Origin: a virus
DNA length: 64,000 bases
Direction: 5' to 3' (one strand)
Virus record (IMG/VR): IMGVR_UViG_3300042338_000192
Coordinates: 1-64,000 of that record
The notes beneath the pieces were generated by a model that made no database searches, was not told the origin of the DNA, and saw only the letters and a program-made list of their open reading frames with translations. Positions within the stretch are counted from its first letter, which is position 1, and each line of letters opens with the position of its first letter. A program made the position numbers and the translations under genes. This document shows, one piece after another, positions 1-52,678 of this stretch.

Positions 1-1269
1 AAATTAAGATACGCCGTAGTGTGTTGCGCGAGGGGTTGGGGTAAATCATATATGGCTGCTGTGTGTGCAGTTACAGCTGTATTTGAATTACTCGAGCTAG
101 CAGCTAAGGTGCCTAATAAGACAGTGTACATCATTGCTCCTACTTATGATCAAGTAAAGGATATTTATTTTCCTTTAATAGCATACGACTTGGGAATGGA
201 AGACTATTCTATCAAAATGTCCCGTGACTTAGGACGATTTTGGTTCGCTAATAATGTTGAATTAAGATTATTATCATATGAATCAGTAGAACGTATGCGT
301 GGCAAGGGTTCTTATTTTGTCGTATGGGATGAGATATCATCATGTACCAAAGGTCTTGGTGCTGAAGACGCATGGATGTCTGTAATACAGCCTACTATTG
401 CCACTAGATGGTCTAACAAAAGAGCATTAAGTTATGGTGCTAGAAGTCCTGGACGTTCATTAGTTATTAGTACACCCAAAGGATATAATTTCTTTCATAC
501 ACTATCTACATATCATGAATCAGACTCTGATTGGGGATTTTATCAGTATGATTATTTACAATCGCCATTCCTAGATCAACAAGAAATAGAAAAGATTAAA
601 GATAAGATTGACCCAGTAACATGGGCATCAGAATACTTAGCACAATTTGCTGAATCAGGCAACAGTGTATTCTACTGTTTTGATCGTAAGAAACATGTTG
701 ATGCTACATTAGAAGACCTTATGGAAGGTGAAGATGTTCATATATGTATTGACTTTAACGTCATGCGTCAGTGTTCTAGTGTCTTCACACTTAGAGGGCA
801 TCAAATGCAATTTATTGATGAGTTCCAAGGGCATCCTGATACAGAATCACTGGCTATTGCTATTAAAGAAAAATATAAAGGCCATAAGATATATGCATAT
901 CCAGATCCTTCTGGTCGTGCTAGAAAGACTTCTGCTCCAGTAGGCCGTACTGACTTTAGTATATTAGAGACATATGGCATTATATGTAGAGCACACAGGG
1001 CTGCACCACCTATTATTGATAGTGTAGCTGCTGTAAACCGTAAACTATTAACAGCTTCAGGTAAAATAGACCTGTATGTACATCCTAGATGTTCCGGTAC
1101 TATTTTATCCTTAGAAAGAACAAAATGGACAGACCGCAACTTAGATATCGCGACAATTGATAAGTCCGAAAATATAGAGCATTTTTCTGACGGTATTAGA
1201 TATGCCACAGAATATCTCTATCCAATACAAACGGGCGGGAAACGGGTTTCTCGTGGGTTTAATTTCTAA
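1..1269 (+). CDS. terL: Terminase large subunit (5' end cut by window)
   Basis: The packaging motor ATPase and headful or site-specific nuclease, which drives DNA into the prohead through the portal. The reading frame is already open at base 1, so the true start lies upstream. Counting from the first codon in the window, the Walker A motif CARGWGKS is at residues 9-16 and the Walker B VVWDE at 107-111. The RNase H-like nuclease domain shows acidic residues at D251 (CIDFN), D302 (YPDPSG) and D397 (FSDGIRY). About 422 residues are visible, so only a short N-terminal stretch is missing. Unusually, fibre genes rather than the portal follow; the portal lies 11 kb downstream. Identification rests on the motif order and is firm. 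Confidence 0.93.
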   Translation, partial: KLRYAVVCCARGWGKSYMAAVCAVTAVFELLELAAKVPNKTVYIIAPTYDQVKDIYFPLIAYDLGMEDYSIKMSRDLGRFWFANNVELRLLSYESVERMRGKGSYFVVWDEISSCTKGLGAEDAWMSVIQPTIATRWSNKRALSYGARSPGRSLVISTPKGYNFFHTLSTYHESDSDWGFYQYDYLQSPFLDQQEIEKIKDKIDPVTWASEYLAQFAESGNSVFYCFDRKKHVDATLEDLMEGEDVHICIDFNVMRQCSSVFTLRGHQMQFIDEFQGHPDTESLAIAIKEKYKGHKIYAYPDPSGRARKTSAPVGRTDFSILETYGIICRAHRAAPPIIDSVAAVNRKLLTASGKIDLYVHPRCSGTILSLERTKWTDRNLDIATIDKSENIEHFSDGIRYATEYLYPIQTGGKRVSRGFNF

Positions 1270-4173: not shown

Positions 4174-4641
4174 ATGTTAAAAGATAATTTGAAGCCAGCT
4201 GGTATTGTTAATTTGGTATTAACAGATGAATTTGGCAATATTAAACAACAAGAAGAAACCAATCTAGTAGTAAACACTGGTTTAGCCTATATCACATCAC
4301 GTATGCTTAATGCAGACACAGCTGTAGTTTCACATATGCAAGTCGGAACTGATGTTACACCAACCCCTGTAGCTGCAACAGATACTGTTTTGGTTAACCC
4401 ATTGACACCTCGTGTAGGTCTCAGTTCCGCCGCAGTAAGAGTGCAAACAACTGTTTTAAATGACTCAGTACAGTATGTAGCGTCTTTCCCTGCAGGCAGC
4501 TCAACAGGTGCTATCGGTGAAGCAGGCTTATTCAATGACTTGACAGCAGGCTCTATGATTGCTCGCACTAAATTCCCAGTAATCAATAAAGGCGCGTTAG
4601 ATACTTTAGCGATCACTTGGAAAATTACTGTAGCACCATAA
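4174..4641 (+). CDS. Putative fibre-associated structural protein
   Basis: 155 residues, with an AAGGA-type ribosome site just upstream. It contains a conserved-looking core: VVNTGLAYITSRML near residue 32, VGTD...TP at 55, then GAIGEAGLFND near 115 and a final beta strand TLAITWKITV. The combination of 'VGTG' and 'EAGLFN' strands is common in small tail fibre or baseplate proteins of environmental phages. It lies in a tight run of appendage genes. No enzyme motifs are visible. Function is inferred from context only. Confidence 0.75.
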   Translation: MLKDNLKPAGIVNLVLTDEFGNIKQQEETNLVVNTGLAYITSRMLNADTAVVSHMQVGTDVTPTPVAATDTVLVNPLTPRVGLSSAAVRVQTTVLNDSVQYVASFPAGSSTGAIGEAGLFNDLTAGSMIARTKFPVINKGALDTLAITWKITVAP

Positions 4642-4642: not shown

Positions 4643-4810
4643 ATGACTACGGTAGATATAACTACACGCGCGAGTCAAGAAGAACCTTTGACTATTGTAC
4701 AAATGGACACAAACTTAACTAATTTAAAAGCAGGTATAGAGGAACTCTCTGATTTGCTTCCACAGATTAGTACAGATGCTGCAATTGCAATGGCAATCGC
4801 ATTGGGGTAA
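4643..4810 (+). CDS. Small 55-residue protein in fibre operon
   Basis: A short frame from ATG at 4643, one base after the preceding stop, to the TAA ending at 4810, two bases before the next ATG. The peptide begins MTTVDITTRASQEEP and ends in an alanine-rich helix AAIAMAIALG. The exact packing between two real genes is the main support. A coiled-coil segment (NLKAGIEELSDLLPQI) suggests a small oligomerising structural protein. Confidence 0.6.
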   Translation: MTTVDITTRASQEEPLTIVQMDTNLTNLKAGIEELSDLLPQISTDAAIAMAIALG

Positions 4811-4812
4811 TT

Positions 4813-5127
4813 ATGGCTCAAAATTTTAAAAGAGTCAGTGCATCTAGTATCGGGACTGCCGCTACAACCATATATACTGCTACTTCTTCTGTAATATTGA
4901 TCGGCTGTAATATCTCAAATCTTACCAATTTCGACTTACCGATAAGTATTTGGATAACAAATTCTACTGATACTTATCTTCTAAAGAATTATAGATTAAA
5001 AGGTAATGACAGCAAAGAAGTCGTACAAGGTAAGATTGTGTTAGAGTCTGGAGACATAGTTAAAGCTATTAGCTCACTGGCTAACTCCATTGACGTACGT
5101 CTTGCTATGTTAACAGGAGTCGCATAA
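4813..5127 (+). CDS. Small beta-rich structural protein
   Basis: 104 residues. The sequence reads as a beta sandwich: ATTIYTATSS, VILIGCNISNLTN, LPISIWITNS, TYLLKNYRLK, GKIVLESGDIVKAISS, SIDVRLAMLTG. This type of small protein accompanies fibres in marine myo- and siphoviruses, where it may trimerise at fibre joints. Its stop overlaps the next start (TAATG at 5125-5129), so translation is coupled. No catalytic motif seen. Confidence 0.78.
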   Translation: MAQNFKRVSASSIGTAATTIYTATSSVILIGCNISNLTNFDLPISIWITNSTDTYLLKNYRLKGNDSKEVVQGKIVLESGDIVKAISSLANSIDVRLAMLTGVA

Positions 5128-5339
5128 TGTTTAATCACGTAGACGAAACATTTTATGGTTTTAGGGTAGAATCAAAAACTAGTTCATTGACTGTAGAAGT
5201 TATCTCAGGGGAATCTCCTGTCGTATTACCTCAAGAAGGTTTTATCGATAGTGAAGATTACAAACAATGGCTATGGTCTAGAAATGCTCACCAGTTTGAC
5301 TGGAGCGCTACAGGCCATTTAAGGGTAAAAGTAGTATGA
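5127..5339 (+). CDS. Small conserved-looking tail-region protein
   Basis: 70 residues. It begins MFNHVDETFYGFRVESK and contains a tryptophan-rich stretch KQWLWSRNAHQFDWSATGH. Its start overlaps the stop of the gene before, and its last bases overlap the start of the large fibre at 5336. Such coupling usually means equimolar structural partners. No family recognised. Confidence 0.72.
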   Translation: MFNHVDETFYGFRVESKTSSLTVEVISGESPVVLPQEGFIDSEDYKQWLWSRNAHQFDWSATGHLRVKVV

Positions 5340-8300
5340 CACAATATATAGATTTAGGAAAACTACGATTTCATTTTGCAGGCGACTGGGCAAATACCAC
5401 GGCTTACGAAACAAATGATGTCGTTAAATATGGTGGTAATGTGTATGTTTATACTCACGCATTGAAAACTGCAGGAAGTCTCCCAACAAATACCGCATAT
5501 TGGGCGTTAATGGTTGAAGGCTTTAAATTTAAAGGTGTATTTAGTACATCTGTCGCTTATAGAATAGGTGACGGTGTCGCGCACGGTGGTAAGATTTATG
5601 TAGCCGTTTTAGATAGCACAGGCTCAACACCTCCAAATACCACTTATTGGTCGCAGTTTGTCGATGGCATTCAATACGAAGGTGAGTACAGTTCTGTAAC
5701 ATCATATCAAAAGAATGACGTTGTAACTTACGGCGGTTCTATTTATATTGCTAAGCAAGATACCACAAACAATAATCCAGTAGCAACGGCATATTGGGAT
5801 AAGTTTGTAGAAGGTATTTCGCCATCTGGAATTTATAACGCTGCTACTGCTTATGCGCCTGGAGATTTAATTGCGTATGGCCCTAACTTATACAGAGCTA
5901 CTGCTAATACAACAGGTAATCTCCCCACTAATCAAACTTATTGGGAGTTATTCATTCAGGGGACTAGTTACCAGGGTATCTTTAATACTGTCACTACATA
6001 CTACGTAAATGATCTAGTATCCCATGGCGGTAATTTGTATCGCTCAAAAGTAACACAATCCAATGCAACACCTCCAGGGGTATCGTGGGATATTATTTCA
6101 CAAGGTTTCTCATTCCAAGGTGTATGGTCTTCAGCAACAGCTTATAAGATTGGCCAGACAGTAAGTTATGGCGGTTCACTTTTCCAAGTCAAGGTAGATA
6201 ACACTAATGTTAATCCTACCGATATTTCGAAGTGGGATAAGCTATTATCTGGCTTTAGAAATAAAGGAACTTGGACAACAGCGACAGCCTATGCTGTAGA
6301 TGATGTAGTTGGGCATGGTGGTAATACATATCTGTGTTTAACTCCGCATGCATCAGCAGTATTTGATACTGACTTATCAGCGAGTAAATGGCAAAAGTTT
6401 AATAGCGGTGTTGCGTGGCGCGGCGTGTGGAGTGCTAGCCAACTTTACCTAAAAGATGATTTAGTCAAAGACGCAGTAGGCTCGGTTTACATAGCTACTT
6501 CAGACCATACTTCTTCAGCTAGTATGAGTTCTGACAAGACAGCTGGCAAATGGTCTATATTTGTAGTTGGCGGCAGCGACGTATTACCAGCAGTTCCTTT
6601 AGCTCCTAATGGTAAATCTCTTACATTTAACAACAATGGTTCAGCATTAGATTGGATTGGCGCAACAGCATCAGCTAATATTATTTATGTAGCACCACAC
6701 GGTTCAGACAGCGTAAATAATGGTCAAAATTTAGCCACACCATACGCATCTATTAAATACGCGTGTCAGAATGCAGCTGTTGGAGCTACTATTTTTGTTA
6801 AAACAGGTACATATTCTGAACAATTGCCAATTACTGTACCCGAGCATGTAGCTATTGTTGGTGATAGCCAGCGTACAGTCATTGTACAACCTAAAGCAGG
6901 TAATGATGATTCAGGTTCAATACCTAATGCACAATCAACAATGTTCTACCTTAGCAACGGTTCTATCTTAAATAAGATGACCTTCAAAGGAATGACGGGC
7001 TGGGTTCCAGGTACTACAGCAGCAGATGTCACTACATCTACAATTAAAGGCGTAGTGGTTCGTTTCAATCCTGCATCTCCTATTCTTACAAAATCACCTT
7101 ATGTATTAGAATGCGCTGCTATTTGTAGTGGAGCTATTGGTGCGTTAATTGACGGCACTATTCATGCTTCTGGCGCTAAAACAATGATTTTCCATGGCTA
7201 CACTGTTATATCTGACAACGGTGTGGGATATTGGGTTAAGGATGGCGGTAAGGCTGAAATTGTCTCTTGTTTTACATATTACTGTTACTTTGGTTATACA
7301 GCTTCCGGTGGCGGATTTATTCGTGCCTTAAATGGTAATAATAGTTATGGAACGTGGGGCGCAACATCTCGTGGTTATAACACAAATGAATCAGCATTAA
7401 CAGGTGCTTTAGTAGGACAGCAATTAAATTTCCTTTATGGTGGTGGTACAATTAACGTAAACGACACAGTAACAGGCCCAACAGGAACAGGCGTTGTAAC
7501 AAATGTCCAATACTCTGCTAATAAGCTATACGTTAAAAATACCACAGGTACGTTTACATCTGGTCAAGCTTTGACGTTTACAAGCGGTGGCACTGGTACG
7601 GTTTCAAACGGTGCATTGGAAAACCAAAAAGGCTTTGTATTAATTGTCACAGGCCTAGCATCTAGCCCTAAACCAGGTTCTAGTATTTCTATAAATGGTG
7701 ATACCTACGCGTATGTAATCCAAAGCGTATCAGGTACATATGTAGATAATACTAGTACATTAGTCTTAGTATTGGCTCAGGAAAAGCCTACGGGTTCTGC
7801 AGCAGGATCTGCTGTCACTATTCGTACTATGTACAGTCAAATTCGTTTAACTGGTCATGACTTTTTAAGTATTGGAACAGGTGGTGTAACAACTACTAAT
7901 TATCCTAACACACCTACACAAGCGGCAGCGCAGGGTAATGAAACAGACGAAGCATACCCTGGTCGTGTATTTTATGTAAGTACCGATCAAGATGGTAATT
8001 TCAGAGTAGGTGAATATTTTAGAATTGATCAGGCAACAGGAAGGGCTACTTTGAATGCTAATGCATTCGATTTGGCCGGTTTGACATCACTAAAATTAGG
8101 TTCTATTGGTGCGCAATTAGGTGAAACAATTAATGAATTTTCAAGTGACGCAACATTATCTGGCAATTCTAATACAGCTGTACCAACAGAGTATGCCGTT
8201 AAAACATACGCAGATAATGCATTAGTTTCAAGAGTTCCTCAAACTGTTCCAACTGCTGTTGGTAATACCGCTAAGTTTTTACAAAGCCAAGGGACTTCCT

Positions 8301-8611
8301 TAGTTTGGGCAACTGTATCTGTTACGCCAGAATGGTCTGTAAAATCTGCGAACTATACAGCTGTGGCAAGTGATAATTTATTTTGTGATACCAGCATAGG
8401 TGCTTTTACTATTACATTACCTTCAAGTGCTGTATTAAACGATACAATTCGAATTGTCGATGTGGGTAGCGCTTTTTCACGGTATAATTTAACAGTAGCG
8501 AATAATGGCTTGAAAATTGAGGGAATGCTTGACAACCTTGTGTGTGATATTGCAAACACCTCGATAAGTTTAACATACTCAGGCAGCACCTACGGTTGGT
8601 GTATTGTTTAA
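5336..8611 (+). CDS. Tail fibre with eight carbohydrate-binding-like modules and a beta-helix
   Basis: 1091 residues. Residues about 10-420 hold eight tandem modules of about 48 residues, each with the pattern G.(W/F)...T.Y...D.V.(Y/H)GG..Y, ending in YW..(F/M)V.G; this resembles chitin-binding 5/12 modules. From about residue 440 there is a right-handed beta-helix start (IYVAPHGSDSVNNGQNLATP, then IFVKTGTYSE) of the pectate-lyase or DUF1565 type. Near residue 880 is VFYVSTDQDGNFRVGEYF followed by TLNANAFDLAGL and IGAQLGETINEFSSD, a block typical of marine phage fibres. The C-terminus is a compact beta domain. Likely role: a host-receptor fibre binding a surface polysaccharide. Confidence 0.88.
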   Translation: MTQYIDLGKLRFHFAGDWANTTAYETNDVVKYGGNVYVYTHALKTAGSLPTNTAYWALMVEGFKFKGVFSTSVAYRIGDGVAHGGKIYVAVLDSTGSTPPNTTYWSQFVDGIQYEGEYSSVTSYQKNDVVTYGGSIYIAKQDTTNNNPVATAYWDKFVEGISPSGIYNAATAYAPGDLIAYGPNLYRATANTTGNLPTNQTYWELFIQGTSYQGIFNTVTTYYVNDLVSHGGNLYRSKVTQSNATPPGVSWDIISQGFSFQGVWSSATAYKIGQTVSYGGSLFQVKVDNTNVNPTDISKWDKLLSGFRNKGTWTTATAYAVDDVVGHGGNTYLCLTPHASAVFDTDLSASKWQKFNSGVAWRGVWSASQLYLKDDLVKDAVGSVYIATSDHTSSASMSSDKTAGKWSIFVVGGSDVLPAVPLAPNGKSLTFNNNGSALDWIGATASANIIYVAPHGSDSVNNGQNLATPYASIKYACQNAAVGATIFVKTGTYSEQLPITVPEHVAIVGDSQRTVIVQPKAGNDDSGSIPNAQSTMFYLSNGSILNKMTFKGMTGWVPGTTAADVTTSTIKGVVVRFNPASPILTKSPYVLECAAICSGAIGALIDGTIHASGAKTMIFHGYTVISDNGVGYWVKDGGKAEIVSCFTYYCYFGYTASGGGFIRALNGNNSYGTWGATSRGYNTNESALTGALVGQQLNFLYGGGTINVNDTVTGPTGTGVVTNVQYSANKLYVKNTTGTFTSGQALTFTSGGTGTVSNGALENQKGFVLIVTGLASSPKPGSSISINGDTYAYVIQSVSGTYVDNTSTLVLVLAQEKPTGSAAGSAVTIRTMYSQIRLTGHDFLSIGTGGVTTTNYPNTPTQAAAQGNETDEAYPGRVFYVSTDQDGNFRVGEYFRIDQATGRATLNANAFDLAGLTSLKLGSIGAQLGETINEFSSDATLSGNSNTAVPTEYAVKTYADNALVSRVPQTVPTAVGNTAKFLQSQGTSLVWATVSVTPEWSVKSANYTAVASDNLFCDTSIGAFTITLPSSAVLNDTIRIVDVGSAFSRYNLTVANNGLKIEGMLDNLVCDIANTSISLTYSGSTYGWCIV

Positions 8612-8632
8612 TAACACAACAGGAATTTAATA

Positions 8633-10057
8633 ATGGCTTTTCTTTCTCAAATAACAACAGGCACGCAAAATACTATTGGTGCCTATAATCCAATGTCCGC
8701 GCAAGCAATGCCCAGGGCATCGTATGTAATTGCTTCACATAATACCTCAAGTACCTTTTATGGCGCTATATTTTTAGACGCAGAATTTCGTAGAATTGGA
8801 AGACCTGGAAATCAGTTTGCCAATACGTATGCAAATGGTTTTACAAATGACATGGATCAAACAGACGGTTCATATGTTACTCCGAGTGGTCAGATGTTTA
8901 ACAACAGTCTAAGTCCGAATACGCAAACGTCTATGTCAAGCTCTGGCTACTCACTTCCGATGTGCGGTACTGCGTCAATGGGCGAATATGGACAAGGCGC
9001 ATTTATGGGCTCTGAACGCGGAATTATTATGAGCTCTAATATGCGGTTTCTATCTAGTACGGGTACAGCGCCCATTAGAGCTAACCGCGCGTTTGTAAAT
9101 AGCGATCATGCAAATAAAAAGTTAACCATGCAATTTTCAGGTGGATACTTAACAGTTTGCCCGATCCAAACTCCGATTTGTTATACAATAGCTTCTACAG
9201 ATCCTTTTCCACGTCCTAAGTTTAATGCGCAATCGCTCTTTAATACGTATGATTCAGGTAGCCAAACAACTAGCATGTATGGTTCTGCGTCGTATAATGC
9301 AGTGCGTAAGGAACTTATGATTGCAACAACTAGCAATACTGCCGCAGGCCGTGTGAATATTGCAATATGGAAGAATTTCGATTTTGATGCAGTTAGGGGA
9401 GATGTTGCAACACTATCCGCAGCGCCTACTGTTTTGTTGAATACAACTTTAGCCTCTTTTATTGACTCCTCCGAAGCTCGTTTTAATTCTAAATGGACAT
9501 TAGTTGATGATGGTAGTATATTTGTTTCAACAATGAATGAAGGAAGTAACAGTACTTATTTATGGAAGATTACAAGAGCTGCGCTTGACGCAAGTTTAAG
9601 CAATACTCAGGTAGGCACTCAGAGTACGACAACAGCGTATGGTCTTGCCAACGGCGAGTCTTATGGTCAACGTCAGATGCAAACTCGTTCAGGAAATATG
9701 ACTTGTAGTTGGGTGCCATATTATTATTACCAATGCGGTATTAGAAGCTGGGTAATTGATAAGCGTAATAGTTCGTGGACTTACGGGTATAGTGACAACA
9801 ACAGCACTTGTGGAACATACCCTATGAAATACAGAGATAATGGCTTTGTATTTGCGTTTACATCTAACTATTACGCAGGCAATTGGACTGGGATGTATAA
9901 TGCAGGAACTTGTTTTCCAAGTCTTACTGTAAATGCAGCGCCTATTGTGTATAATATGGCGTGGTATTATCCTTCTGCGCCAGGCCCTAATACAACTAAC
10001 TATCCCGGTATAAGTCATGTATGGGAATTTGACTTACAATCTCAATTACCTTATTAA
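8633..10057 (+). CDS. Tail fibre or host-recognition protein
   Basis: 474 residues with AGGAATTTAATAATG at the start. The protein is rich in S, T, N, Y and aromatic residues, and has repeated WxxxxF/DxG strands suggesting a beta propeller (for example KWTLVDDGSIFVS and TYLWKIT). The N-terminus MAFLSQITTGTQNTIGAYNP could be the attachment segment and the C-terminus ISHVWEFDLQSQLPY a terminal strand. It lies directly after the modular fibre and before a small partner protein, the usual place for a receptor-binding tip. No enzymatic motif seen. Role inferred. Confidence 0.75.
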   Translation: MAFLSQITTGTQNTIGAYNPMSAQAMPRASYVIASHNTSSTFYGAIFLDAEFRRIGRPGNQFANTYANGFTNDMDQTDGSYVTPSGQMFNNSLSPNTQTSMSSSGYSLPMCGTASMGEYGQGAFMGSERGIIMSSNMRFLSSTGTAPIRANRAFVNSDHANKKLTMQFSGGYLTVCPIQTPICYTIASTDPFPRPKFNAQSLFNTYDSGSQTTSMYGSASYNAVRKELMIATTSNTAAGRVNIAIWKNFDFDAVRGDVATLSAAPTVLLNTTLASFIDSSEARFNSKWTLVDDGSIFVSTMNEGSNSTYLWKITRAALDASLSNTQVGTQSTTTAYGLANGESYGQRQMQTRSGNMTCSWVPYYYYQCGIRSWVIDKRNSSWTYGYSDNNSTCGTYPMKYRDNGFVFAFTSNYYAGNWTGMYNAGTCFPSLTVNAAPIVYNMAWYYPSAPGPNTTNYPGISHVWEFDLQSQLPY

Positions 10058-10066
10058 GAGGCTAAA

Positions 10067-10321
10067 ATGGTAAATAAATTAAAATTTAATCTCCTTGGTG
10101 ATTTGGAAAATAACCCAAGATTGCTTGAAGTAGTAGATGGTGAATACGAAGCACCTACAGAAGGGCAGTTACCTCATAGGTTTAAATATGATGTTACAAC
10201 TGACTCTATTTTAGATGTTTACGGTGATATCTCTGACTTTGAAGTTAGACAAAAAGATCATGAAGCCGCAATTGCTTTGGCAACTGAGCTAGGTATGCCC
10301 TTACCACCTCCATTGGTATGA
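10067..10321 (+). CDS. Small protein following the fibre gene
   Basis: 84 residues. It has mixed alpha/beta character with an acidic middle (DYGDISDFEVRQ-like) and a proline-rich tail (MPLPPPLV). Position suggests a fibre-assembly helper, but nothing in the sequence proves it. Its stop codon overlaps the heme oxygenase start (ATGA at 10318-10321), so the bilin genes are translated from the fibre message. Confidence 0.7.
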   Translation: MVNKLKFNLLGDLENNPRLLEVVDGEYEAPTEGQLPHRFKYDVTTDSILDVYGDISDFEVRQKDHEAAIALATELGMPLPPPLV

Positions 10322-10854
10322 GCCTACGGGAGCTAACCCACGATAAACATAGTGAGGCGGAAAATCACCGCTTCACTAAATTATTGTTAAGTGGAACAAT
10401 ACCAAAAGAAATATATGCAGACTATCTATATTCACAATTCAGATGCTATGCTATTCTAGAAGAAAGAGCCAGGTCTCTCGGATTACTTGATAACCTTGAA
10501 GCGATAGAACGTTCCATTAAAATATTTCAAGACTTTGATGAATTAGATTATGATGCACTCAATTACGATTCTGTTGAAAAGTACTCACAACATATACTAG
10601 CACTAGATAAGGAGCAACTCTTAGCTCATATTTATGTTAGACATTTCGGAGATATGTATGGTGGCCAAATGATTAAAAAGGTCATTCCAGGCTCCGGTAA
10701 AATGTATGAATTCGAAGATAGACAAGGATTAATCGATAAGATCAGACCTTTGCTATCAGATGACTTAGCTAATGAAGCTAATAAATGTTTTGATTTCGTA
10801 TTAAAATTATTTGACGAGATTTCAGATGAGCACGATATACAAAAAGTTCAATGA
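10318..10854 (+). CDS. hemO: Heme oxygenase
   Basis: 178 residues, the size of bacterial and phage heme oxygenases. It opens heme with electrons from ferredoxin to give biliverdin, CO and free iron. The proximal-helix motif LTHDKHSEAEN places the heme ligand at His11 (compare H in the family motif H..AEN). The distal helix YVRHFGDMYGGQMIKK at residues 107-121 matches the family signature with its glycine hinge, G111, G115 and G116. It starts on an ATGA overlap with the gene before and is followed, through a tiny coupled frame, by a bilin reductase. That pairing indicates a two-step pigment pathway. Heme oxygenases occur in cyanophages and other marine phages; assignment is strong. Confidence 0.93.
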   Translation: MSLRELTHDKHSEAENHRFTKLLLSGTIPKEIYADYLYSQFRCYAILEERARSLGLLDNLEAIERSIKIFQDFDELDYDALNYDSVEKYSQHILALDKEQLLAHIYVRHFGDMYGGQMIKKVIPGSGKMYEFEDRQGLIDKIRPLLSDDLANEANKCFDFVLKLFDEISDEHDIQKVQ

Positions 10855-10897
10855 GTTAATAGATTATTTATATGACCTTGCACAGCACACTGTATGA
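10826..10897 (+). CDS. Possible 23-residue coupling peptide
   Basis: A tiny frame starting inside the end of heme oxygenase and ending with TGA at 10895-10897, overlapping the reductase ATG at 10894 (ATGA). The peptide MSTIYKKFNELIDYLYDLAQ then HTV is helix-like. It may only serve to carry ribosomes across the 39-base gap between the two enzymes. It could also be chance; support is the ATGA overlap alone. Confidence 0.3.
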   Translation: MSTIYKKFNELIDYLYDLAQHTV

Positions 10898-11685
10898 GTG
10901 AAATCTTTGAAAGATTAACAGTTCAGGCTGAACAATTCAAAGTATTACTAGATAACTATGCTGAAGATACGAATGAAGAGCATGATTTCGGTTGGGAAAA
11001 TAGAGTGTATAGTAACCATTATATACGTAGAGCTCATTTAGATATTATTGACCTTCGGGACACTAAGAAAATCTATATGATGCATCTCTGTATATTCCCA
11101 AAGATTACCTCTAATTCTCCTATCTTCGGTGTAGATATTGTGGCTGGCCCTAATAAAGTAACGGGCGCATTTCTTGATTACTCTCCTGTGTCTGAAGATA
11201 GTCATCCATTAACTAGTTGGTTTGCTTCAGAGACGAAGAAGTATAGTTGGAAGAGAGAGCGCGAGTTGCCTGAATGGGCACGCGCTATATTCAGTAAAGA
11301 TATGGTAGCTGCGAGTAATATAAACACTATAACCGAATTAGATGCATTTTTAAAGCTAGCACACGATTCACTTTCGTGTTATTTAACAAATGTAAATTAT
11401 TCTTCTAGCGAAGATTTATATATAGATCAACAAAATTTTTACTGTAAGATGCAAAAACAAAATCCTCATACGCCAAGAGTTTTAGAATCGTTAGGCTTTG
11501 AGAAAGAACTAGTAGTTAATTTTATTAATACAGGATTATTTCCGGAGATTGGTATGTCATTTTTAGATGATTTAAAAGATTCAGTAGAAGAGGTTGTTGA
11601 AGTACTAGTTCCTATTGTACCTCACAGCATTGTAGAAGATGTTGTCGACGTAACTGTTGACACAATTGTAGAGGTTGTATCATGA
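10894..11685 (+). CDS. pcyX: Ferredoxin-dependent bilin reductase, PcyA/PebS/PcyX family
   Basis: 263 residues. Enzymes of this family reduce biliverdin to phycobilins using ferredoxin. Family features seen: HLCIFPKITSNSPIFGVDIV (residues 64-83), the hallmark 'FP...PIFG.D' strand, then GAFLDYSPVS, where Asp95 aligns with the catalytic Asp105 of PcyA. The C-terminal helix QNFYCKMQKQNPHTPRVLE (181-199) and NFINTGLFPE (209-218) match the family's ending. Asp178 is a candidate for a second proton donor. The heme oxygenase next door supplies biliverdin. The exact product (phycoerythrobilin in known PcyX) cannot be read from sequence, and the PcyX label is by context. Residues 221-263 are an unusual valine- and acid-rich extension beyond the normal end. 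Confidence 0.85.
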   Translation: MSEIFERLTVQAEQFKVLLDNYAEDTNEEHDFGWENRVYSNHYIRRAHLDIIDLRDTKKIYMMHLCIFPKITSNSPIFGVDIVAGPNKVTGAFLDYSPVSEDSHPLTSWFASETKKYSWKRERELPEWARAIFSKDMVAASNINTITELDAFLKLAHDSLSCYLTNVNYSSSEDLYIDQQNFYCKMQKQNPHTPRVLESLGFEKELVVNFINTGLFPEIGMSFLDDLKDSVEEVVEVLVPIVPHSIVEDVVDVTVDTIVEVVS

Positions 11686-11840
11686 CAAACAGTTTAGATA
11701 AAGCATTTAAAGATGCAGGAAAAGCTATTAATCACACTGTACACGAAGCAGCAGATGTTGCAGAAAAAGTTGTGACTAATCCTGATGTACAAGAAGTAGC
11801 AAAAGAAGTTGCTATTGGCGTTATTGTTGCAGCGGTATAA
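11682..11840 (+). CDS. Small 52-residue helical protein
   Basis: Starts on an ATGA overlap with the reductase stop. The peptide MTNSLDKAFKDAGKAINHTV continues with an amphipathic helix and ends in a hydrophobic AIGVIVAAV. Its character (repeated D/E-V-V and A-V) resembles the odd extension of the reductase just upstream. It immediately precedes the lysozyme, so a role in lysis or membrane targeting is conceivable but unproven. Confidence 0.6.
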   Translation: MTNSLDKAFKDAGKAINHTVHEAADVAEKVVTNPDVQEVAKEVAIGVIVAAV

Positions 11841-11842
11841 TT

Positions 11843-12292
11843 ATGGAACTTAGCGATAAAGGCGCAGAAGACTTAAAAGGTTCTGAAGGGTTTAGATCGC
11901 AACCGTATCCAGATGGTGAGGGCGTCCCTACTATTGGCTTTGGTAGTACTTTCTATGAGAATGGTACTAGAGTCACATTAAAGGATGCTCCCATTACTAA
12001 GGAGCGAGCGTTACAACTTTTCAAAGTTACCCTTAAGCAATACACAAGTGCAGTTGATAAAAACGTAACTGTACCGTTAACACAAAACGAATTTGATGCA
12101 TTAGTAGAATTTACATATAATGTAGGTGTAGCCGCTTTTAAAGGTTCTACATTATTGAAGCGACTCAATGCAGGGGCACCTAAAGATCAAGTAGCTGCTC
12201 AATTCCTTAGATGGAATAAAGATGAAGGTAAAGTCGTTCCAGGCTTAACCAATAGACGTAAACGTGAATCAACTAAATTTTTAGGAAAATAA
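11843..12292 (+). CDS. Endolysin, T4-type lysozyme (GH24)
   Basis: 149 residues. This muramidase cuts the glycan of peptidoglycan to release progeny. The catalytic triad is intact and spaced exactly as in T4 lysozyme: Glu15 (SEGFR), Asp24 (YPDGEG) and Thr30 (PTIGFG). Downstream helices FDALVEFTYNVG and FLRWNKDEG are also family-typical, and the length is close to T4 lysozyme (164) and shorter P22/lambdoid forms. There is no signal peptide or SAR-like N-terminal span, so it needs a holin; the best holin candidate is far away at 50952-51134. It is embedded in the late operon between the bilin genes and the portal. Confidence 0.93.
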   Translation: MELSDKGAEDLKGSEGFRSQPYPDGEGVPTIGFGSTFYENGTRVTLKDAPITKERALQLFKVTLKQYTSAVDKNVTVPLTQNEFDALVEFTYNVGVAAFKGSTLLKRLNAGAPKDQVAAQFLRWNKDEGKVVPGLTNRRKRESTKFLGK

Positions 12293-12293
12293 A

Positions 12294-12494
12294 ATGGCAG
12301 ATCAGCAAGAAACATTAACCGTAGCCCCTAAAGTTATGGCAAAGGTACAACCAAAAGAATTTGTAAATAAAATTACATCTAACTGGAATATTACACCTAC
12401 TGAAGTTGAAGAGGAAATCACAGCTTTGAATAGCGTGACAAATGAATATTTTGAAGGCACTATTGTTGAATTTAATAGACTATTAGAGGCTTAG
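12294..12494 (+). CDS. Small 66-residue protein upstream of portal
   Basis: Starts one base after the lysozyme stop and ends one base before the portal ATG. The sequence has a charged helical C-terminal half (TPTEVEEEITALNSVTNEYF) and no cysteines. Its tight spacing between two well-identified late genes supports reality. Function unknown. Confidence 0.72.
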   Translation: MADQQETLTVAPKVMAKVQPKEFVNKITSNWNITPTEVEEEITALNSVTNEYFEGTIVEFNRLLEA

Positions 12495-14113: not shown

Positions 14114-17100
14114 ATGACCATTAATAGTAATACACAAATATACGACAAAACACTAGATCGCGCAGCAATGATCCGTCTGTATGAGAGAAGAGTCTCTGGT
14201 AAAGTTGATTTAGTAATTGATGGTCATGTTGTTAGACTAGATAAATTAATTAAAGATGCTGAACTATCAGGCAGGGGTTTTGAAAGATTCAGAGAAGCAG
14301 TTGATCAAGAGTTAAGAAAGACTTATAAGTCAATTAATAATTCTGTTCAAAAAGATCTTTCATCACTTGTCTCAGATCAACTCTCATATGCTTATCAAAA
14401 AGTTGAAGTGGCAATGGGTAAAATATGGCGTACTGAAAGACCTAAAAATAGAATCTCTGAAGAAATTGTACTTAAAAATCCATTAAGCGAAAATGGTACA
14501 ATGGAACAGGGATGGTCAGGTATTGCCAAGAATGAAAAAATTAGATTAGAAGCAGTTATACGTAAGGGTATAGCTGACGGAAAAAGCGTAGATGAAATAG
14601 CTCTACAAGTACGTGCAGGAAATGTACATAATATAACTCGCATGCAGTCGAAAGGTCTGGTAATAACAGCCATTACAGCTGTATCCTCTCAGGCTGATCA
14701 TGCTATTTATAAAGCAAATGAAAAAGCGTTACAAGGATGGCAATATGTTGCTGTCCTTGACGCACGAACAACCCCAGTATGTGCCCATAGAGATGGTGAA
14801 ATTTATCCGATTAGCGATACAACACATCTCCCACCAGCACATTGGCATTGTAGATCTACAACAGTTCCTGTATTTAAATCATGGAGCGATATAGCAGATT
14901 TAGAAAGCGTAGCACAAGTAAGACGTAGAAATATTGAGAACTTAACTGATGCTCAAAAGGCTTTTTATGACGGTAATACACCACTTAGAGAATCATACAA
15001 TGATTGGCTAAAGCGTCAGCCACAAGATGTACAATTAAGGCATTTAGGTGATTATAAAAAAGTTAGTATGTTCCAAAGCGGGCAGCTTACCTTAGATCAG
15101 TTTACTAATCCCGAAGGTAATTCTATTGGGATTAAAGAATTAAGACGGATGACCGATCCCACATATACACTGCCAAATGATACAAAAAAGTTTGCTAATG
15201 CTAAAGCTAAACTTGATGCTATGCAACTTCCAATCATGACACCTGATGATTTAATTGGCAACACTAAGCTTATACAAACACTTAAAGATTATTATTTACT
15301 GCAATCAGGTGAATTAGACGGTACATTATCACTCACTAATTATAGGGGTGGTCTTATTCATACTAAGAAATCTGCCAAGGCAAGAGTACTTAATAGTCTT
15401 CCAACAGAAGATCAACTCATTTTTAATCCTGTCACAGGTCGATACGAAGATACAAGACTATACCAACCCAATCCGTCCGTACTAAATAATAACTTAAGAT
15501 TGACAGAACAAAGTAATGTTCTAAAGCCTAAAGATAAGGAATTTATTAAGGAATTTAATGAATTACTTAGTGAGAAAATGGGATCTAATGAAAGGGCAGT
15601 CGTGGTAGATAACCTGCGTATATTATTTACTAGATTTAGAAATAATGGTGAACAGTGGAATAATTTTAAAGCTGTAGTACAAGGTCAAATTAAATTTGAT
15701 GTAATGAATGTTTCTGATGCTATTGAAACTCAGATACGTAGTGATATCAACGTATTGAAGAAACTCAAACAAGATAATTATATTGATCCAGTATTAGGTC
15801 CAACTCAATTACAAGACTTACATGATAATTTCATTGATAATATTCGTGCTAAGAATAACTGGGAAGACACTATATCACCTAAAATAGCTAGAGAGTTACG
15901 TAATACATTTGATTACAAAATTCCTTTAGTATTAAAAAGAATGCCTAACGGTAAAGAACGTTTAACTGAATCTGCATTACAGCAATTTTATCTAAAGTTT
16001 GCTCACAGGCTAAGTATGGCAGATATGCCTGATAGAGACCAGTTTGCTATTGCATTAGGAAGAGATTTATATAATCTTGCTAATATGAACGGCACTAGAC
16101 GTAAATGGTATGAAACAGGTATGAAGCTACTTGAAGCTAAAAATGTTAATAATTTCTTTGAAGTTGAAACATATGGTGTTCAAAAAAGAAGAATGAAAAG
16201 TAGACTTAGTGGTTCTTTATTTGGTCCCTATTATGACACCTTATCATATAATATACGTGTTACTGATCCGCGTGTACAAAAATACTCACAGCTCACACGG
16301 AAAGTGGATGTCGGCCTTCGTGTCGGTGTAACAACGGATAAGAATAAGTTATTATTTCGCGAGGGTTATAAAACGTATTTTATTGATAATGGTGTCCTCG
16401 GTTTAGAAGATACTAGAATACCTATTACATCAACAAATAGTTTTTCAGATTTTCCTGTAGAATTTGTTGACAAGAATATGGCAGATGCACTTAACTGGGC
16501 ATCCAAATCCAAGTATAAAATTGATAATGACTTTTACGACTTTACTCAGAAATTACTATACTTTGAAGATGATCGTGGTAATGCTAAAAAGTATAATGAT
16601 TTAAACGAGTATAAACATTATATTTCTTCTCGTGGTGATGCATATGAGCGATTTAAATCTATGGATTGGCTTAGAAATAATGGTTACGCTTTCAGTAATC
16701 ATGCTTTTGTCGATCATCGGGCTAGGATCTATGATCGTGGCCTTATTAGTCCGCAATCGGGAGAGTCATTTAGACCTTTCTTAAATACTGAAGTAGAAAA
16801 GGTTCTTGGCGAAGATGGATATAGAAACTTCAGAGATCAGATAGGTGCCTTTATGGGGGGTCTAAATGATGTATTTGAAGGTAGATATAATTCATTGTCA
16901 TTTACTGGACGCCAAAAGATTGCTGATAAATTGTGGCCAGATATGGTAGACCTTGGTAATAAAATGCTAAGAGCCAGACCTGCAGATTTACGTGCCATTC
17001 TGGAATCAGATATGGTGCAATTAATTGAAGGTGAGGAACTTGGTAAGTTCATGAGATTTGCTATGGAAGCTGCTAAGATAGATAATCATCTTAAAGCCGG

Positions 17101-19441
17101 CGGCTCTATGAATGCATACAAAACAGCTTTAGCTTTAGAACAAGATGCTTCATCATCAGGTGCTCAGATTATTGCGTTAACTACGAAGAACAAACAGTTA
17201 GCCTCGTTATCTAATGTCATACCTACAAATCAGAAACGCAGGCTATATGATGAAATTGCTGCTGCAACTTTTAATGATCCTCGGTTTAAAGTTTTAAATG
17301 AGAGATTAGGTTTAAATGAGAAAGATTTACGTAAAGCTGCAAAAGCTCAAAATATGGTTACGTTTTATGGTGCTGGAGAAAGAACTGGAATTCTTAATGT
17401 TGAAGGTAAACTTGCAAAAGTATTGGAAAAGAAACCTGCAAAACCTGTTGAAACAAAAGTAACAGAAGGTTTATTATCCGAGCGTCAAGATTCTGCAGGA
17501 TTGTTAAGAGTATTAGGTGTTGATAATAAAACAGATCCTAATTATGTAGGCACAGTAGATGAGATTATTAAATCGCAAGGTGAGTTAATTTCAAAGGCTA
17601 TGAAAGGTCAGTTGTCTCCTGCAGAATTAAAAAATACGTTTAAATGGCTACATACTTCTGATATTGAATTAACAGATGAAAGAAAAGAGCGTGCTACATA
17701 TAAAACATTTGATCATAAGACTGGTGAAAAATTTTCTAAAGAAAAGATAGCTGAAAATAAAGCTAAATTTGAACAGCGCTCAAAAGGCGATACTAAGAAA
17801 TATATTGCTATGCAAGTTGTTGAAGAACTCGGTGAATTTTTAGATGAGCATTTAAAATCTTTAAATGTCCCTTCCGATTCAAGAGCCTTTAAATTATTAG
17901 AAGCTCAAAAACGTATTTTAAAGTCAAACAGGTTTGGTGAAGACACTATCATTAAAGATGAAGCGAGTGTTTATAATTTAAAGACAAATAAACAAGCTGC
18001 TGAAATGGCTTTAGAAGATGCAGGATTTACACCTGCTACTGCAAACACAGAAAAGACTATAGCAGATCTTAGTTCAGCATTACAAGAAGAATTGATTAAT
18101 GTAACTAAAAAGCCTGAAACATTTGCACCTACATTAGTAGTTAGAGCTAGTGATAGAGACAAAGTATTAAATGAAATATCGGCACGTGCAGCAAGATATG
18201 AAAAGTTTGATCCTGAAACAACTGCAGAACTTAAGCAATTAAGAGAAAATGTAAAAGACATCTTTAATAAAGGACTAGACCCTGGTGATGAGATAATGGA
18301 ACAATTATACTTCCTTGATCCAGCTACTAAAGACCTAGTAGAAAAGATGACACGTTCATATGATATGGTTGTCACTCCAAAAGACTTCCAAGCTATTGCT
18401 AAATTAATGTCTGAACATTTAGGTGAGCAGGTTCCTATTCTTAAAGATTTTACTAAATTCTTTGGTAGGCTAGCTGAAGATTATTTAACTAATGCTAAGC
18501 CTTCACAAGCTGCATTAGATTGGAAATCTATAGGCGCTACTAGTATATTAGGTACCCGTAAAAAGGGTTATGTATTACCTGATAGAGTTAGTGAAATATT
18601 AGGATTAAGGCCTGGAGAAGCTTTGTCTGAAAAGTTTTTAAAGAGATTTGATGGTTGGAAACCTGACGGAACCTTGGCTGATCTTATTTATGGTGTAAAA
18701 GGCCCAAAAGATCGTAGAACTGGATTTAAAGTATTTAAAGTAGAGCCTATAGAAAAATTAAATATCTCTAAAGGTTTTGAAATATTTTATGCTAATAAGC
18801 TGCCCAAGTCTTGGACTAATGTCCCATGGGTTAATTTTGATGGAAAAGTTATTGAGCAAAACTTTACCCAGTCATTTGAAGAAAGATTAGTCTATAAAGA
18901 TAAAGATGGTAATTGGGTTAATAATTTAGTTCAAGTGCAACAGAAAACAGAAGCCACTTGGTGGGAACAAGTAGTAAATGCTGAAGGAAAGATAAATGAC
19001 ATTGCAGACGCGACTAAAGCACGAACAGCATATGCCGTTAACGGGAATCACTCAAACGATGCTACGTTGGTCAAGAATTTCCATTTATGGGGACGAGACA
19101 ATAAGATTGCCACAAGCACCATTCACGATGCGTTTTTCGCCAATGCAGCCGATATGCTGGAGGCCCGGAAGGGTATAAGAAAGCTATATGCTAACGTACT
19201 AGATAAGAACCCTGTCAAGGTTACTTTAGATGAAATGTTAGCTAGAGGTTTTCCAAAAGAATTATATGATCAATATTTAGAAGAAGCTATTGATAAAGGA
19301 TTAATTCCAGTTGCTGGTAAATCAGTTGTCGGTGGTAAAACATTAACAGAAGCAGACATCTTAACAAAGAAAGATGTATTAAGCGATATTCCTGATCCTA
19401 CTAAATTTGAGGATGATTGGGGATTTTACGGTATAGGCTAA
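14114..19441 (+). CDS. MuF minor head protein fused to single-subunit RNA polymerase
   Basis: 1775 residues. Residues 1-260 look like a MuF head protein: helical N-terminus, then DARTTPVCAHRDG (216-228) and PPAHWHCRSTT (240-250), the classic MuF cysteine/histidine motif. The C-terminal half carries a full RNA polymerase palm: DHRARIY (867-873, R871 aligning with T7 R425), LEQDASSSGAQ (D1011, T7 D537), R1073, K1077 and Y1085-G1086 (T7 R627, K631, Y639, spacing identical), then NHSNDATLVKNFHLWG and IHDAF (H1671, D1672; T7 H811-D812). The Y-to-D gap is 587 residues, far longer than in T7 (173), so a large insertion splits fingers from palm. MuF proteins are carried in virions, so this is probably an N4-like virion RNA polymerase injected with the DNA. 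Polymerase activity is inferred. Confidence 0.85.
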   Translation: MTINSNTQIYDKTLDRAAMIRLYERRVSGKVDLVIDGHVVRLDKLIKDAELSGRGFERFREAVDQELRKTYKSINNSVQKDLSSLVSDQLSYAYQKVEVAMGKIWRTERPKNRISEEIVLKNPLSENGTMEQGWSGIAKNEKIRLEAVIRKGIADGKSVDEIALQVRAGNVHNITRMQSKGLVITAITAVSSQADHAIYKANEKALQGWQYVAVLDARTTPVCAHRDGEIYPISDTTHLPPAHWHCRSTTVPVFKSWSDIADLESVAQVRRRNIENLTDAQKAFYDGNTPLRESYNDWLKRQPQDVQLRHLGDYKKVSMFQSGQLTLDQFTNPEGNSIGIKELRRMTDPTYTLPNDTKKFANAKAKLDAMQLPIMTPDDLIGNTKLIQTLKDYYLLQSGELDGTLSLTNYRGGLIHTKKSAKARVLNSLPTEDQLIFNPVTGRYEDTRLYQPNPSVLNNNLRLTEQSNVLKPKDKEFIKEFNELLSEKMGSNERAVVVDNLRILFTRFRNNGEQWNNFKAVVQGQIKFDVMNVSDAIETQIRSDINVLKKLKQDNYIDPVLGPTQLQDLHDNFIDNIRAKNNWEDTISPKIARELRNTFDYKIPLVLKRMPNGKERLTESALQQFYLKFAHRLSMADMPDRDQFAIALGRDLYNLANMNGTRRKWYETGMKLLEAKNVNNFFEVETYGVQKRRMKSRLSGSLFGPYYDTLSYNIRVTDPRVQKYSQLTRKVDVGLRVGVTTDKNKLLFREGYKTYFIDNGVLGLEDTRIPITSTNSFSDFPVEFVDKNMADALNWASKSKYKIDNDFYDFTQKLLYFEDDRGNAKKYNDLNEYKHYISSRGDAYERFKSMDWLRNNGYAFSNHAFVDHRARIYDRGLISPQSGESFRPFLNTEVEKVLGEDGYRNFRDQIGAFMGGLNDVFEGRYNSLSFTGRQKIADKLWPDMVDLGNKMLRARPADLRAILESDMVQLIEGEELGKFMRFAMEAAKIDNHLKAGGSMNAYKTALALEQDASSSGAQIIALTTKNKQLASLSNVIPTNQKRRLYDEIAAATFNDPRFKVLNERLGLNEKDLRKAAKAQNMVTFYGAGERTGILNVEGKLAKVLEKKPAKPVETKVTEGLLSERQDSAGLLRVLGVDNKTDPNYVGTVDEIIKSQGELISKAMKGQLSPAELKNTFKWLHTSDIELTDERKERATYKTFDHKTGEKFSKEKIAENKAKFEQRSKGDTKKYIAMQVVEELGEFLDEHLKSLNVPSDSRAFKLLEAQKRILKSNRFGEDTIIKDEASVYNLKTNKQAAEMALEDAGFTPATANTEKTIADLSSALQEELINVTKKPETFAPTLVVRASDRDKVLNEISARAARYEKFDPETTAELKQLRENVKDIFNKGLDPGDEIMEQLYFLDPATKDLVEKMTRSYDMVVTPKDFQAIAKLMSEHLGEQVPILKDFTKFFGRLAEDYLTNAKPSQAALDWKSIGATSILGTRKKGYVLPDRVSEILGLRPGEALSEKFLKRFDGWKPDGTLADLIYGVKGPKDRRTGFKVFKVEPIEKLNISKGFEIFYANKLPKSWTNVPWVNFDGKVIEQNFTQSFEERLVYKDKDGNWVNNLVQVQQKTEATWWEQVVNAEGKINDIADATKARTAYAVNGNHSNDATLVKNFHLWGRDNKIATSTIHDAFFANAADMLEARKGIRKLYANVLDKNPVKVTLDEMLARGFPKELYDQYLEEAIDKGLIPVAGKSVVGGKTLTEADILTKKDVLSDIPDPTKFEDDWGFYGIG

Positions 19442-20472: not shown

Positions 20473-21714
20473 ATGGGCGTTACAACAAGTACCTTGCCTA
20501 CAGGTATGCAGGCTGGCTTAACAAATAACTATGTATTACAAGAAGCAATTGGTGCTTACAGCGATGAAGCTTATACCAATGCAAGAAAATTATCTGGCAC
20601 AGGTATTACTTCTTCTAATCCACAAATTGATACTAGCACAGAAACCTTTATTGGTCAAATGCGTTGGATGAAACCGTTAAACCCAACTATTAACGTTGCG
20701 TCATTAACTGAATCTGCAGACGGCGTCAAAACCAATTACGACACTGACTACAGCACATATATTAAAACTGTGCGTACACACGGTGCCGAAAAAGTTAACA
20801 TGCAACAAATTGTTACACAACAAGACGGCTTAGCTAAAATTGGTCGTGACTTCGGTGAAACCCGCGCTCAAGACGAACACAATGCTATTCTTTCTGTATT
20901 GAAAGGTGTTGCTGTAGCTGAAGCATTAAACGGTGCTGCTACAGGTTCAGGTTCAACCGGTCTTGGCGGTCAAACATTCTCTAACGATCCTACAGATAAG
21001 AAATATGGTTTCTACGTAGATCTTGGTTCTGAGAAAATCGTTACTGCTAATGGTGTGGCTCCTGGTGCGGTTACTAACTATGCATATCAAGGTGCTTCAC
21101 GTGCTGAAGGTTTCTTAAATGCATTTGGTATGGCATTTAAAGATTATGAACCAGAATGGGCGTACTTAATTGTATCTCCTGAAACTATGGCTTCATTTCG
21201 TTCAGCTAACTTTGTCGATGAAACAACTATTGTTGATGGTAACATTAACTTTAACACAATCTTCAATGGTAAATTCCGTCTAATCACTACACGTGCTGCT
21301 CAGTCGCTTTCTGCTGCTGAATTAACAATGTTACGTACTGGTGCTGGCGTTGGTGCTGCAACTACTTTTGCTGCTAATAAGAAAACTTCATTCATTGTAT
21401 TGCCAGGTGCGATTGCAATGGAACAGTTGACGGTTCCTGATTCAGTTGAAGTTTACCGTGACGCTAACAAATACAAAGGTGGTGGTACAACTTCTATTTG
21501 GAATCGTTGGGGTTATGTATTATCTCCTGCTGGTTACGATTGGAATGGTGCTAAAACTGAATTCCCATCTGATGCAAATTACATGGGTGTTGTTGAAAGC
21601 GGTACTTCTAAAGCATTGACTGCAACTGGTACTATTGCTAACGCACGTGGTACATGGACACGTAAAACAGCTTCTGCATTATCATTAGGTATCTTACCTG
21701 TATTCCATTCTTAA
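20473..21714 (+). CDS. Major capsid protein (HK97 fold)
   Basis: 413 residues with a good ribosome site (AAGGAAAATTAAAATG). The order N-terminal arm, EETFIGQMRW-like E-loop region, spine helix with QDEHNAILSVLKGVAVAEAL (about 140), P-domain and A-domain strands (EWAYLIVSPETMASFRSANF; KKTSFIVLPGAIAMEQLTVP; GYVLSPAGYDW) fits the HK97-type capsid protein of the N4/T7-like and siphovirus relatives annotated as P22 coat-like. It has alanine/glycine-rich, regularly coded composition typical of very highly expressed genes. Position between scaffold and connector is diagnostic. Confidence 0.9.
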   Translation: MGVTTSTLPTGMQAGLTNNYVLQEAIGAYSDEAYTNARKLSGTGITSSNPQIDTSTETFIGQMRWMKPLNPTINVASLTESADGVKTNYDTDYSTYIKTVRTHGAEKVNMQQIVTQQDGLAKIGRDFGETRAQDEHNAILSVLKGVAVAEALNGAATGSGSTGLGGQTFSNDPTDKKYGFYVDLGSEKIVTANGVAPGAVTNYAYQGASRAEGFLNAFGMAFKDYEPEWAYLIVSPETMASFRSANFVDETTIVDGNINFNTIFNGKFRLITTRAAQSLSAAELTMLRTGAGVGAATTFAANKKTSFIVLPGAIAMEQLTVPDSVEVYRDANKYKGGGTTSIWNRWGYVLSPAGYDWNGAKTEFPSDANYMGVVESGTSKALTATGTIANARGTWTRKTASALSLGILPVFHS

Positions 21715-42594: not shown

Positions 42595-42595
42595 T

Positions 42596-43402
42596 ATGTC
42601 ATACGGTATCCTGAACGGTACTGCATTGATTGCTAAATTTATTGCACCATTAACAGTTAAAAGTAATCAACCAGTATTTAGTTCGGATACCCTTTCATTA
42701 TCTAGAGTTTCGGTAAAACGTAATGTCCAACGTTGGGAGATAGATGCAAATCTTGAACCCCTCGTTGGTACTGCTAACGATTTATTTGCACATCTAGTAA
42801 CTAAAGGGTCATCCGAAAGTTTTAAAATTAAAATGCCTCAGAATTATGGGGCACAATTACAAATAGAAAAACCATTAGAAATAACAGCAACACTAAATAA
42901 AGAAAATGGTAATGTGTTTACAGTAGTAACCCCATCTAATTTTAATTATGTAAGTGTCCTTAATAAAAGTATAATTGGTGTTGGAATAATAACATCTACA
43001 GATGCAGTAGCAAAGACATTAACTGTTACAACTTTAATTCCTGGGAATCCTGGACATAGTGAACCTAAGTCTTATTTTATTGACTCAGAAACGGAATTGA
43101 CAGTTGGCGCAGCGCTTGCTGGTGTAACTAGTCTACCAATTGTTTCTAATACTAATAAAAAATTGCCAGTAGGTCTCTTTATAACTTTCGGTATTGATCC
43201 AAAGGTTTATATGGTGGTTAGCCATACGACTTCTTTGGTAATATTTCCAGAGTTACGATTGCCAATAACTACTACAACGGCTGTAAAATATACAGAAGTA
43301 GAAATGAATGCCAAGTACGATACAGATGTTATCTCAGGCATGGTGTACAGCGATGGTATTATGATGACCACAGGCCAAGTTAAATTGATAGAGGCGTTAT
43401 GA
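42596..43402 (+). CDS. Distal tail/minor tail protein
   Basis: 268 residues from the ATG at 42596, with AGAGGTTAAT just ahead; an in-frame start upstream in the tape measure is less likely. Opening strands MSYGILNGTALIAKFIAPLT and KRNVQRWEIDANLEPL, later SKSYFIDSETELTVGAALAG-like beta hairpins and a closing VYSDGIMMTTGQVKLIEAL. Size, beta content and place after the tape measure match a minor tail or distal tail ring protein. It overlaps the next gene by four bases. Confidence 0.72.
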   Translation: MSYGILNGTALIAKFIAPLTVKSNQPVFSSDTLSLSRVSVKRNVQRWEIDANLEPLVGTANDLFAHLVTKGSSESFKIKMPQNYGAQLQIEKPLEITATLNKENGNVFTVVTPSNFNYVSVLNKSIIGVGIITSTDAVAKTLTVTTLIPGNPGHSEPKSYFIDSETELTVGAALAGVTSLPIVSNTNKKLPVGLFITFGIDPKVYMVVSHTTSLVIFPELRLPITTTTAVKYTEVEMNAKYDTDVISGMVYSDGIMMTTGQVKLIEAL

Positions 43403-50943: not shown

Positions 50944-50951
50944 GAAAAATT

Positions 50952-51134: not shown

Positions 51135-51149
51135 AAAGGGAAAAAACAC

Positions 51150-51818: not shown

Positions 51819-51826
51819 AATTTGAG

Positions 51827-51855
51827 ATGCCCTGACTACGGTTGGGGCATTTATT
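51827..51855 (+). terminator. Hairpin after phoH
   Basis: ATGCCC (51827-51832) pairs with GGGCAT (51845-51850) around a 12-base loop, followed by TTATT. A weak terminator or processing hairpin at the end of the structural-phoH block. Confidence 0.5.
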
Positions 51856-52674: not shown

Positions 52675-52678
52675 CACA

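Follow-up and report, generated by a model that had tools for sequence, protein, structure and literature searches.

We describe here a phage-borne gene pair, hemO and pcyX, encoding a heme oxygenase and a PcyX-type ferredoxin-dependent bilin reductase within a 64,000-base stretch of viral DNA (the window, which is most of a virus record of 66,324 bases). We are fairly confident that the two genes form a working haem-to-bilin pathway and serve as an auxiliary metabolic cassette, whose activity, product, timing, host and benefit we infer here. HemO-PcyX pairs as such are already known from metagenomes, from the cultured pelagiphage Mosig and from the literature (PMC11480375; Nat Commun 2024). 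What is new is this carrier, a long-tailed, Naomviridae-like phage, and the seat of the pair at the end of a foreign block with a tail fibre. The pair probably arrived in the phage not long ago, together with that fibre, on a block of roughly 7 kb whose downstream end it forms; at the right-hand join, pcyX was fused to a mini-ORF already resident there. The features discussed are as follows, all on the plus strand:

1..1269, +, large subunit of the terminase, truncated at the edge of the window
4643..10321, +, remainder of the foreign block, lying ahead of the cassette: 55-aa, 104-aa and 70-aa ORFs, tail fibre, 474-aa and 84-aa ORFs; syntenic in contig G046
5336..8611, +, tail fibre (phrog_9851) with CBM5/12 repeats, a member of the clade that goes with bilin cassettes
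10318..10854, +, hemO, encoding a 178-aa heme oxygenase with proximal His11 and the distal helix HFGDMYGGQ (109-117)
10894..11553, +, core of pcyX, encoding residues 1-220 of the ferredoxin-dependent bilin reductase with Asp50, His64 and Asp81
11544..11547, +, GGAG at the end of pcyX (Pro-Glu-Ile), 6 bases before the ATG at 11554; probably also the ribosome-binding site for the mini-ORF
11554..11685, +, resident 43-aa phage mini-ORF, in-frame C-terminal tail of PcyX with its own ATG kept; free-standing in loci L104 and L121
11682..11840, +, resident 52-aa ORF that precedes the endolysin and is also conserved in cassette-less relatives
11843..12292, +, endolysin (phage lysozyme)
12496..14094, +, portal protein
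14114..19441, +, fusion of a MuF head-morphogenesis protein with a single-subunit RNA polymerase
20473..21714, +, major head protein, the query for phage relatives
24907..42594, +, tail tape measure protein, 5895 aa

The heme oxygenase and the bilin reductase

The two ORFs lie next to each other on the plus strand, exactly where a preliminary description made from the letters of the window had placed them, and the start of hemO overlaps the stop of the preceding ORF in an ATGA. The hemO product matches the Pfam profile PF01126 (Heme_oxygenase) above its cut-off with an E-value of 2.8e-16, and its AlphaFold model (pLDDT 94) has HO-1, HO-2 and HmuO as nearest structures, with a Z score of 21.6 to HO-1. 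His11, Gly111, Asp112, Gly115 and Gly116 are invariant among the 27 viral heme oxygenases aligned. The protein combines the fold, the proximal histidine and the GDxxGG distal helix of HO-1-type enzymes, and its earlier reading as a heme oxygenase with an intact His11 and glycine hinge is borne out by profile, invariant residues and fold alike.

The reductase ORF matches the PF05996 profile (Fe_bilin_red), likewise above its cut-off, with an E-value of 1.9e-22, and its best solved relative by sequence is a phage PcyX, PDB 5owg (E 6.8e-59), followed by PcyA (E 2.3e-17). Superposition of the model on 5owg gives an rmsd of 1.2 over 171 residues at 43% identity, and the Z score to PcyA is 25.1. Fold and catalytic residues are thus shared with PcyX_EBK42635, the protein of entry 5owg, although that match leaves out a 43-residue C-terminal extension of the window protein. 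PcyA requires Glu76, His88 and Asp105, while PcyX does without Glu76 (PMC10151467) and has Asp55 as its specific residue (PMC11480375). Aligned position by position, Glu76, His88 and Asp105 of PcyA correspond to Asp50, His64 and Asp81 (within PIFGVD) of the window protein; as Asp50 takes the place of Glu76 and the other two are kept, the protein carries the PcyX signature. His64 and Asp81 are invariant in both reductase alignments (A1, A2), and the PcyX-type Asp is present in 61 of 61 distinct viral cassette reductases examined, with Glu in its place in three cyanophage PcyA. Asp95, which had been taken for the catalytic aspartate, sits in FLDYSP, 14 residues past Asp81; it is conserved, yet the equivalent of Asp105 is Asp81. 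As a separate observation, Asp or Asn replaces the PcyA His74 equivalent (RRADLD, RRANLD) in cassette reductases of two separate groups (L044, L061, L066, L070, L079, L042, L076; L014, L015).

In the phylogenetic tree the reductase falls inside phage PcyX, where it belongs to a supported group (95/86) of 11 rows, and it stands apart from the other families included, PebS and the PcyA of cyanophages; alphaproteobacterial PcyA was absent, so the boundary to PcyA* lies outside the scope of the tree. A placement outside the reductase family is what the preliminary description had named as speaking against it; its PcyX-type assignment agrees with the tree, the 5owg match and Asp50. A freshwater phage enzyme, CB_2, labelled PcyA/X, did prove to be a true PcyA (PMC11480375), and the window reductase might by analogy be a PcyA yielding phycocyanobilin instead of phycoerythrobilin. 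However, CB_2 lacks the PcyX Asp that the window protein has as Asp50, and PcyX is the nearest solved relative by sequence, which makes this reading very unlikely. Going by their families, the heme oxygenase would open host haem to biliverdin IXalpha, freeing iron and CO, and the PcyX-type reductase would draw four electrons from host ferredoxin to give the pink phycoerythrobilin, the conversion of biliverdin to phycoerythrobilin being the PcyX reaction (PMC11480375).

Both hemO and pcyX are under purifying selection among relatives, with dN/dS mostly between 0.04 and 0.25 for either gene in 17 pairs. The comparison of the window heme oxygenase with its nearest relative, that of contig G001 (96% identical), gives 0.53 on about 30 changes, which are too few to judge this copy. 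Profiles, folds and selection exclude chance or spurious ORFs as an explanation for the two genes, the scores lying far beyond chance.

The ORFs from 4643 to 12494 follow each other on one strand with overlaps or short gaps and include structural and lysis genes. From this gap-poor array, and thus from gene order only, HemO and PcyX are probably made late in infection; the earlier placement of the pair in a late structural operon fits, as it lies within a late same-strand array of structural genes. Promoter-like sites are no commoner than in shuffled sequence, giving no sign of a promoter of the cassette's own, and the single terminator-like hairpin (10350-10378) is located inside hemO. Profile searches of the phage genome found no bilin-binding protein, for which a search had been suggested in the preliminary description, and neither ferredoxin nor 5-aminolevulinate synthase (AlaS). 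Patterns for ferredoxin and for CXRD bilin sites gave just weak matches in frames not taken as genes, and TIGR01821 (AlaS) has no match in the 66-kb record or in its 79-kb relative. A 5-aminolevulinate synthase is encoded in G053, G056 and G059 (loci L039, L054 and L075), which are large HemO-PcyX phage contigs of up to 318 kb.

The carrier phage and the foreign block

PHROGs profiles name a terminase, portal, MuF protein, scaffold, head protein, head-tail connector, tail terminator and tail tube, as well as the 5895-aa tape measure, tail fibres, PhoH, an RNA polymerase, a DNA polymerase and an exonuclease. As the tape measure has this length and a tail sheath finds no match in G001, the fuller relative of the window phage, the gene content gives good support to a long tail of the siphovirus type, in line with the long-tailed phage proposed earlier; the tape measure predicts that the tail would be extremely long. 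The tape measure gene (24907-42594) also encodes lytic-type domains, and that of roseophage DSS3_VP1 is far shorter (4968 bases).

The closest named phages by body are the Naomviridae roseophages DSS3_VP1/PM1 (DSS3_VP1 is labelled a roseophage in PMC12697855) and EBPR siphovirus 1, with 39-48% identity in the head protein and 31-58% in the MuF-RNA polymerase fusion; Pelagibacter siphophages stand farther off. Unlike the window, the records of DSS3_VP1/PM1 and EBPR siphovirus 1 contain no reductase match and have different genes from the tail genes to the endolysin or portal. A host search for the window phage found none; the named relatives infect roseobacters or Pelagibacter, one having no stated host, and we infer that the carrier infects water bacteria.

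The 1775-aa product of 14114-19441 keeps the RNA polymerase motif A (QDASSSGAQ, 1010), motif B (K1077...Y1085) and HD (1671-1672), and a second RNA polymerase is encoded at 54470-56689. The MuF-polymerase fusion, which also occurs in DSS3_VP1/PM1 and EBPR siphovirus 1, suggests that the polymerase may be packaged in the virion, by analogy with P23-45, where a polymerase is fused to the tape measure (PMC10770324). Late genes are interrupted in two relatives: in locus L183 (G013 34500-54400, reverse strand) a 225-aa ORF divides the terminase gene in two, and in EBPR siphovirus 1 an HNH endonuclease gene interrupts the MuF-polymerase gene. These insertions are possible homing elements.

The head protein identifies 35 related contigs, many of which are fragments, and among them only G001 has hemO or pcyX. 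The large relatives G013, G014 and G018 (75-78 kb) lack both genes. In the interval that runs from the homologue of 4174-4641 to the small ORFs preceding the endolysin, they have genes unrelated to those of the window, with weak partial fibre matches in G014. Since unrelated genes occupy the same place in these three contigs, the region from about 4643 to 11553 is, by this comparison, a foreign block with an approximate left edge, and hemO-pcyX is its downstream end, the tail fibre being part of the same block. Contig G046, whose portal and head protein come from other families, has the same order: 104-aa ORF (38%), 70-aa ORF (43%), fibre (53%), a 458-aa ORF weakly similar to 8633-10057 (23%), another ORF, 84-aa ORF (39%), heme oxygenase (51%) and reductase (53%). 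A search for plasmid relatives found none. For a bacterial origin, a single-pattern scan of GTDB genomes, which says little, found two MAG contigs only: L178 and L179, binned as Flavobacteriaceae and Pirellulales, carry HemO-PcyX with phage-like neighbours and are probably misbinned.

At its right-hand end the block runs into resident phage sequence. The reductase frame is 263 aa long, while the majority of PcyX relatives stop around residue 220-230, and residues 221-263 match (about 70%) a free-standing ORF just upstream of the endolysin region in the cassette-less loci L104 (371-499) and L121 (1307-1435). The 263-aa protein had been taken for one enzyme; the actual reductase stops at about residue 220, and the remainder is the resident mini-ORF. 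A pcyX stop codon is absent: CCGGAGATT (Pro-Glu-Ile) continues via GGT into the ATG at 11554. As GGAG precedes this ATG by 6 bases, the same spacing as in L121 (GGAGACAATTATG), the end of pcyX seems to double as the ribosome-binding site of the mini-ORF. An assembly artefact is excluded by three other contigs, from three metagenomes, in which the fusion DNA is identical. The predicted structure is confident for the reductase core and low for the tail (blocks of 43-66), and the tail might impair the reductase. As far as could be checked, a fused tail of PcyX has not been described.

Linkage to one clade of tail fibres

The fibre is present in the cassette loci nearest to that of the window wherever at least 6 kb of upstream sequence is available. 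As these loci had been found through the heme oxygenase, the converse search was run with the fibre alone, and heme oxygenase and/or reductase occur in 24 of its best 80 loci. In a fibre tree of 34 non-redundant loci among the matches listed, the cassette is found in 23 of 23 members of one clade (92/85, inner 96/92) and in 1 of 11 elsewhere. Mapped onto this tree, and again among the matches listed, the cassette label requires 2 changes, whereas shuffled labels need 8.8 on average and none of 500 shuffles is as low. A hand count of the fibre-found loci among the best 80 with at least 7.5 kb downstream gives the cassette in 12/12 inside the clade, two of them showing the heme oxygenase only as the stretch ends there, and in 0/10 outside; the clade was delimited after the data were seen, and loci too short to judge were excluded. 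Separately, in L232 and L244 a distant fibre homologue is accompanied, at 6-7 kb and on the opposite strand, by a bilin reductase, and the stretch has no heme oxygenase.

The carriers of fibre and cassette span virion types: sheathed phages (G067, G078), the type of the window, G046 and the 267-kb contig G079. Pelagibacter phage Mosig EXVC030M resembles the window in gene order, strand, PcyX signature and adjoining structural genes, and has a homologue of the same fibre (34%) about 6 kb upstream of its cassette. It differs in being a 141-kb myovirus (Kyanoviridae), in the Fe(II) oxygenases and ferrochelatase around its cassette, and in its proteins, the reductase being 43% and the heme oxygenase 35% identical to those of the window and the Mosig reductase having 227 aa without a fused tail. 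With this cultured Pelagibacter phage at hand, the earlier view that the host of such pairs is generally unclear is outdated. An implied rarity of the pairing does not hold either, as a reductase accompanies the heme oxygenase on the same stretch in 79 of the 80 viral loci retrieved for that enzyme. The hemO-pcyA/X(-alaS) cassettes of marine and freshwater phages (PMC11480375) comprise the same enzymes and are likewise phage-borne and aquatic; the window lacks alaS, and its siphovirus-type carrier contrasts with the marine contigs of that paper, which were assigned to pelagimyophages.

We put forward, tentatively and at somewhat less than even chances, that the fibre clade and hemO-pcyX form a single module exchanged across unrelated virion types, in which the fibre picks hosts where bilin or haem iron pays. 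The linkage may also reflect descent plus a shared recombination hot spot rather than function. The steady physical linkage to one fibre clade and the lack of the cassette in near relatives would also suit a neutral passenger, hitch-hiking on a host-range fibre module without any benefit of its own; given that key residues and low dN/dS are kept in both genes across most pairs and that some cassette phages show no such fibre within the stretch covered, we regard this as quite improbable. Under the functional reading, so steady an association with a single fibre clade suggests a payoff from the cassette in the hosts reached by this fibre. A literature search for phage work joining heme oxygenase and bilin reductase with a tail fibre, in which subscription journals were thinly covered, returned no title or abstract on such a link, which as far as could be checked is undescribed.

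What the pathway may provide

Two further readings shift the benefit away from the pigment as such or give it a particular target. The gain could lie in the iron released and the haem removed by the heme oxygenase, with the reductase merely clearing biliverdin to keep the reaction running. An iron-supply role has been discussed (PMC11480375), and the Mosig pair adjoins several predicted 2OG-Fe(II) oxygenases besides the ferrochelatase. The PcyX-specific Asp in every distinct viral cassette reductase examined and the strong purifying selection nevertheless exceed the apparent needs of biliverdin disposal, and the fibres of the window phage have no HxH iron-site motif; we therefore rate iron salvage as unlikely, if worth keeping in view. 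More improbable still is a change of host light signalling through loading of the bilin onto a phytochrome or bilin-binding globin of the host. Phytochrome adducts of phycoerythrobilin are usually photoinactive, and the search for a receptor gene in the phage found none. In favour of such reprogramming, a phage PcyA product is able to charge phytochrome (PMC11480375), and non-photosynthetic bacteria have bilin-binding globins (PMC10151467).

The haem-to-bilin pathway bears on the question of why phages of non-cyanobacterial hosts synthesize phycobilins. The clean gain of the cassette relative to close cassette-less relatives, together with the tight link to the fibre, makes this question testable: fibre type should predict the cassette, and the receptors of the fibre should point to the hosts in which pigment or iron matters.
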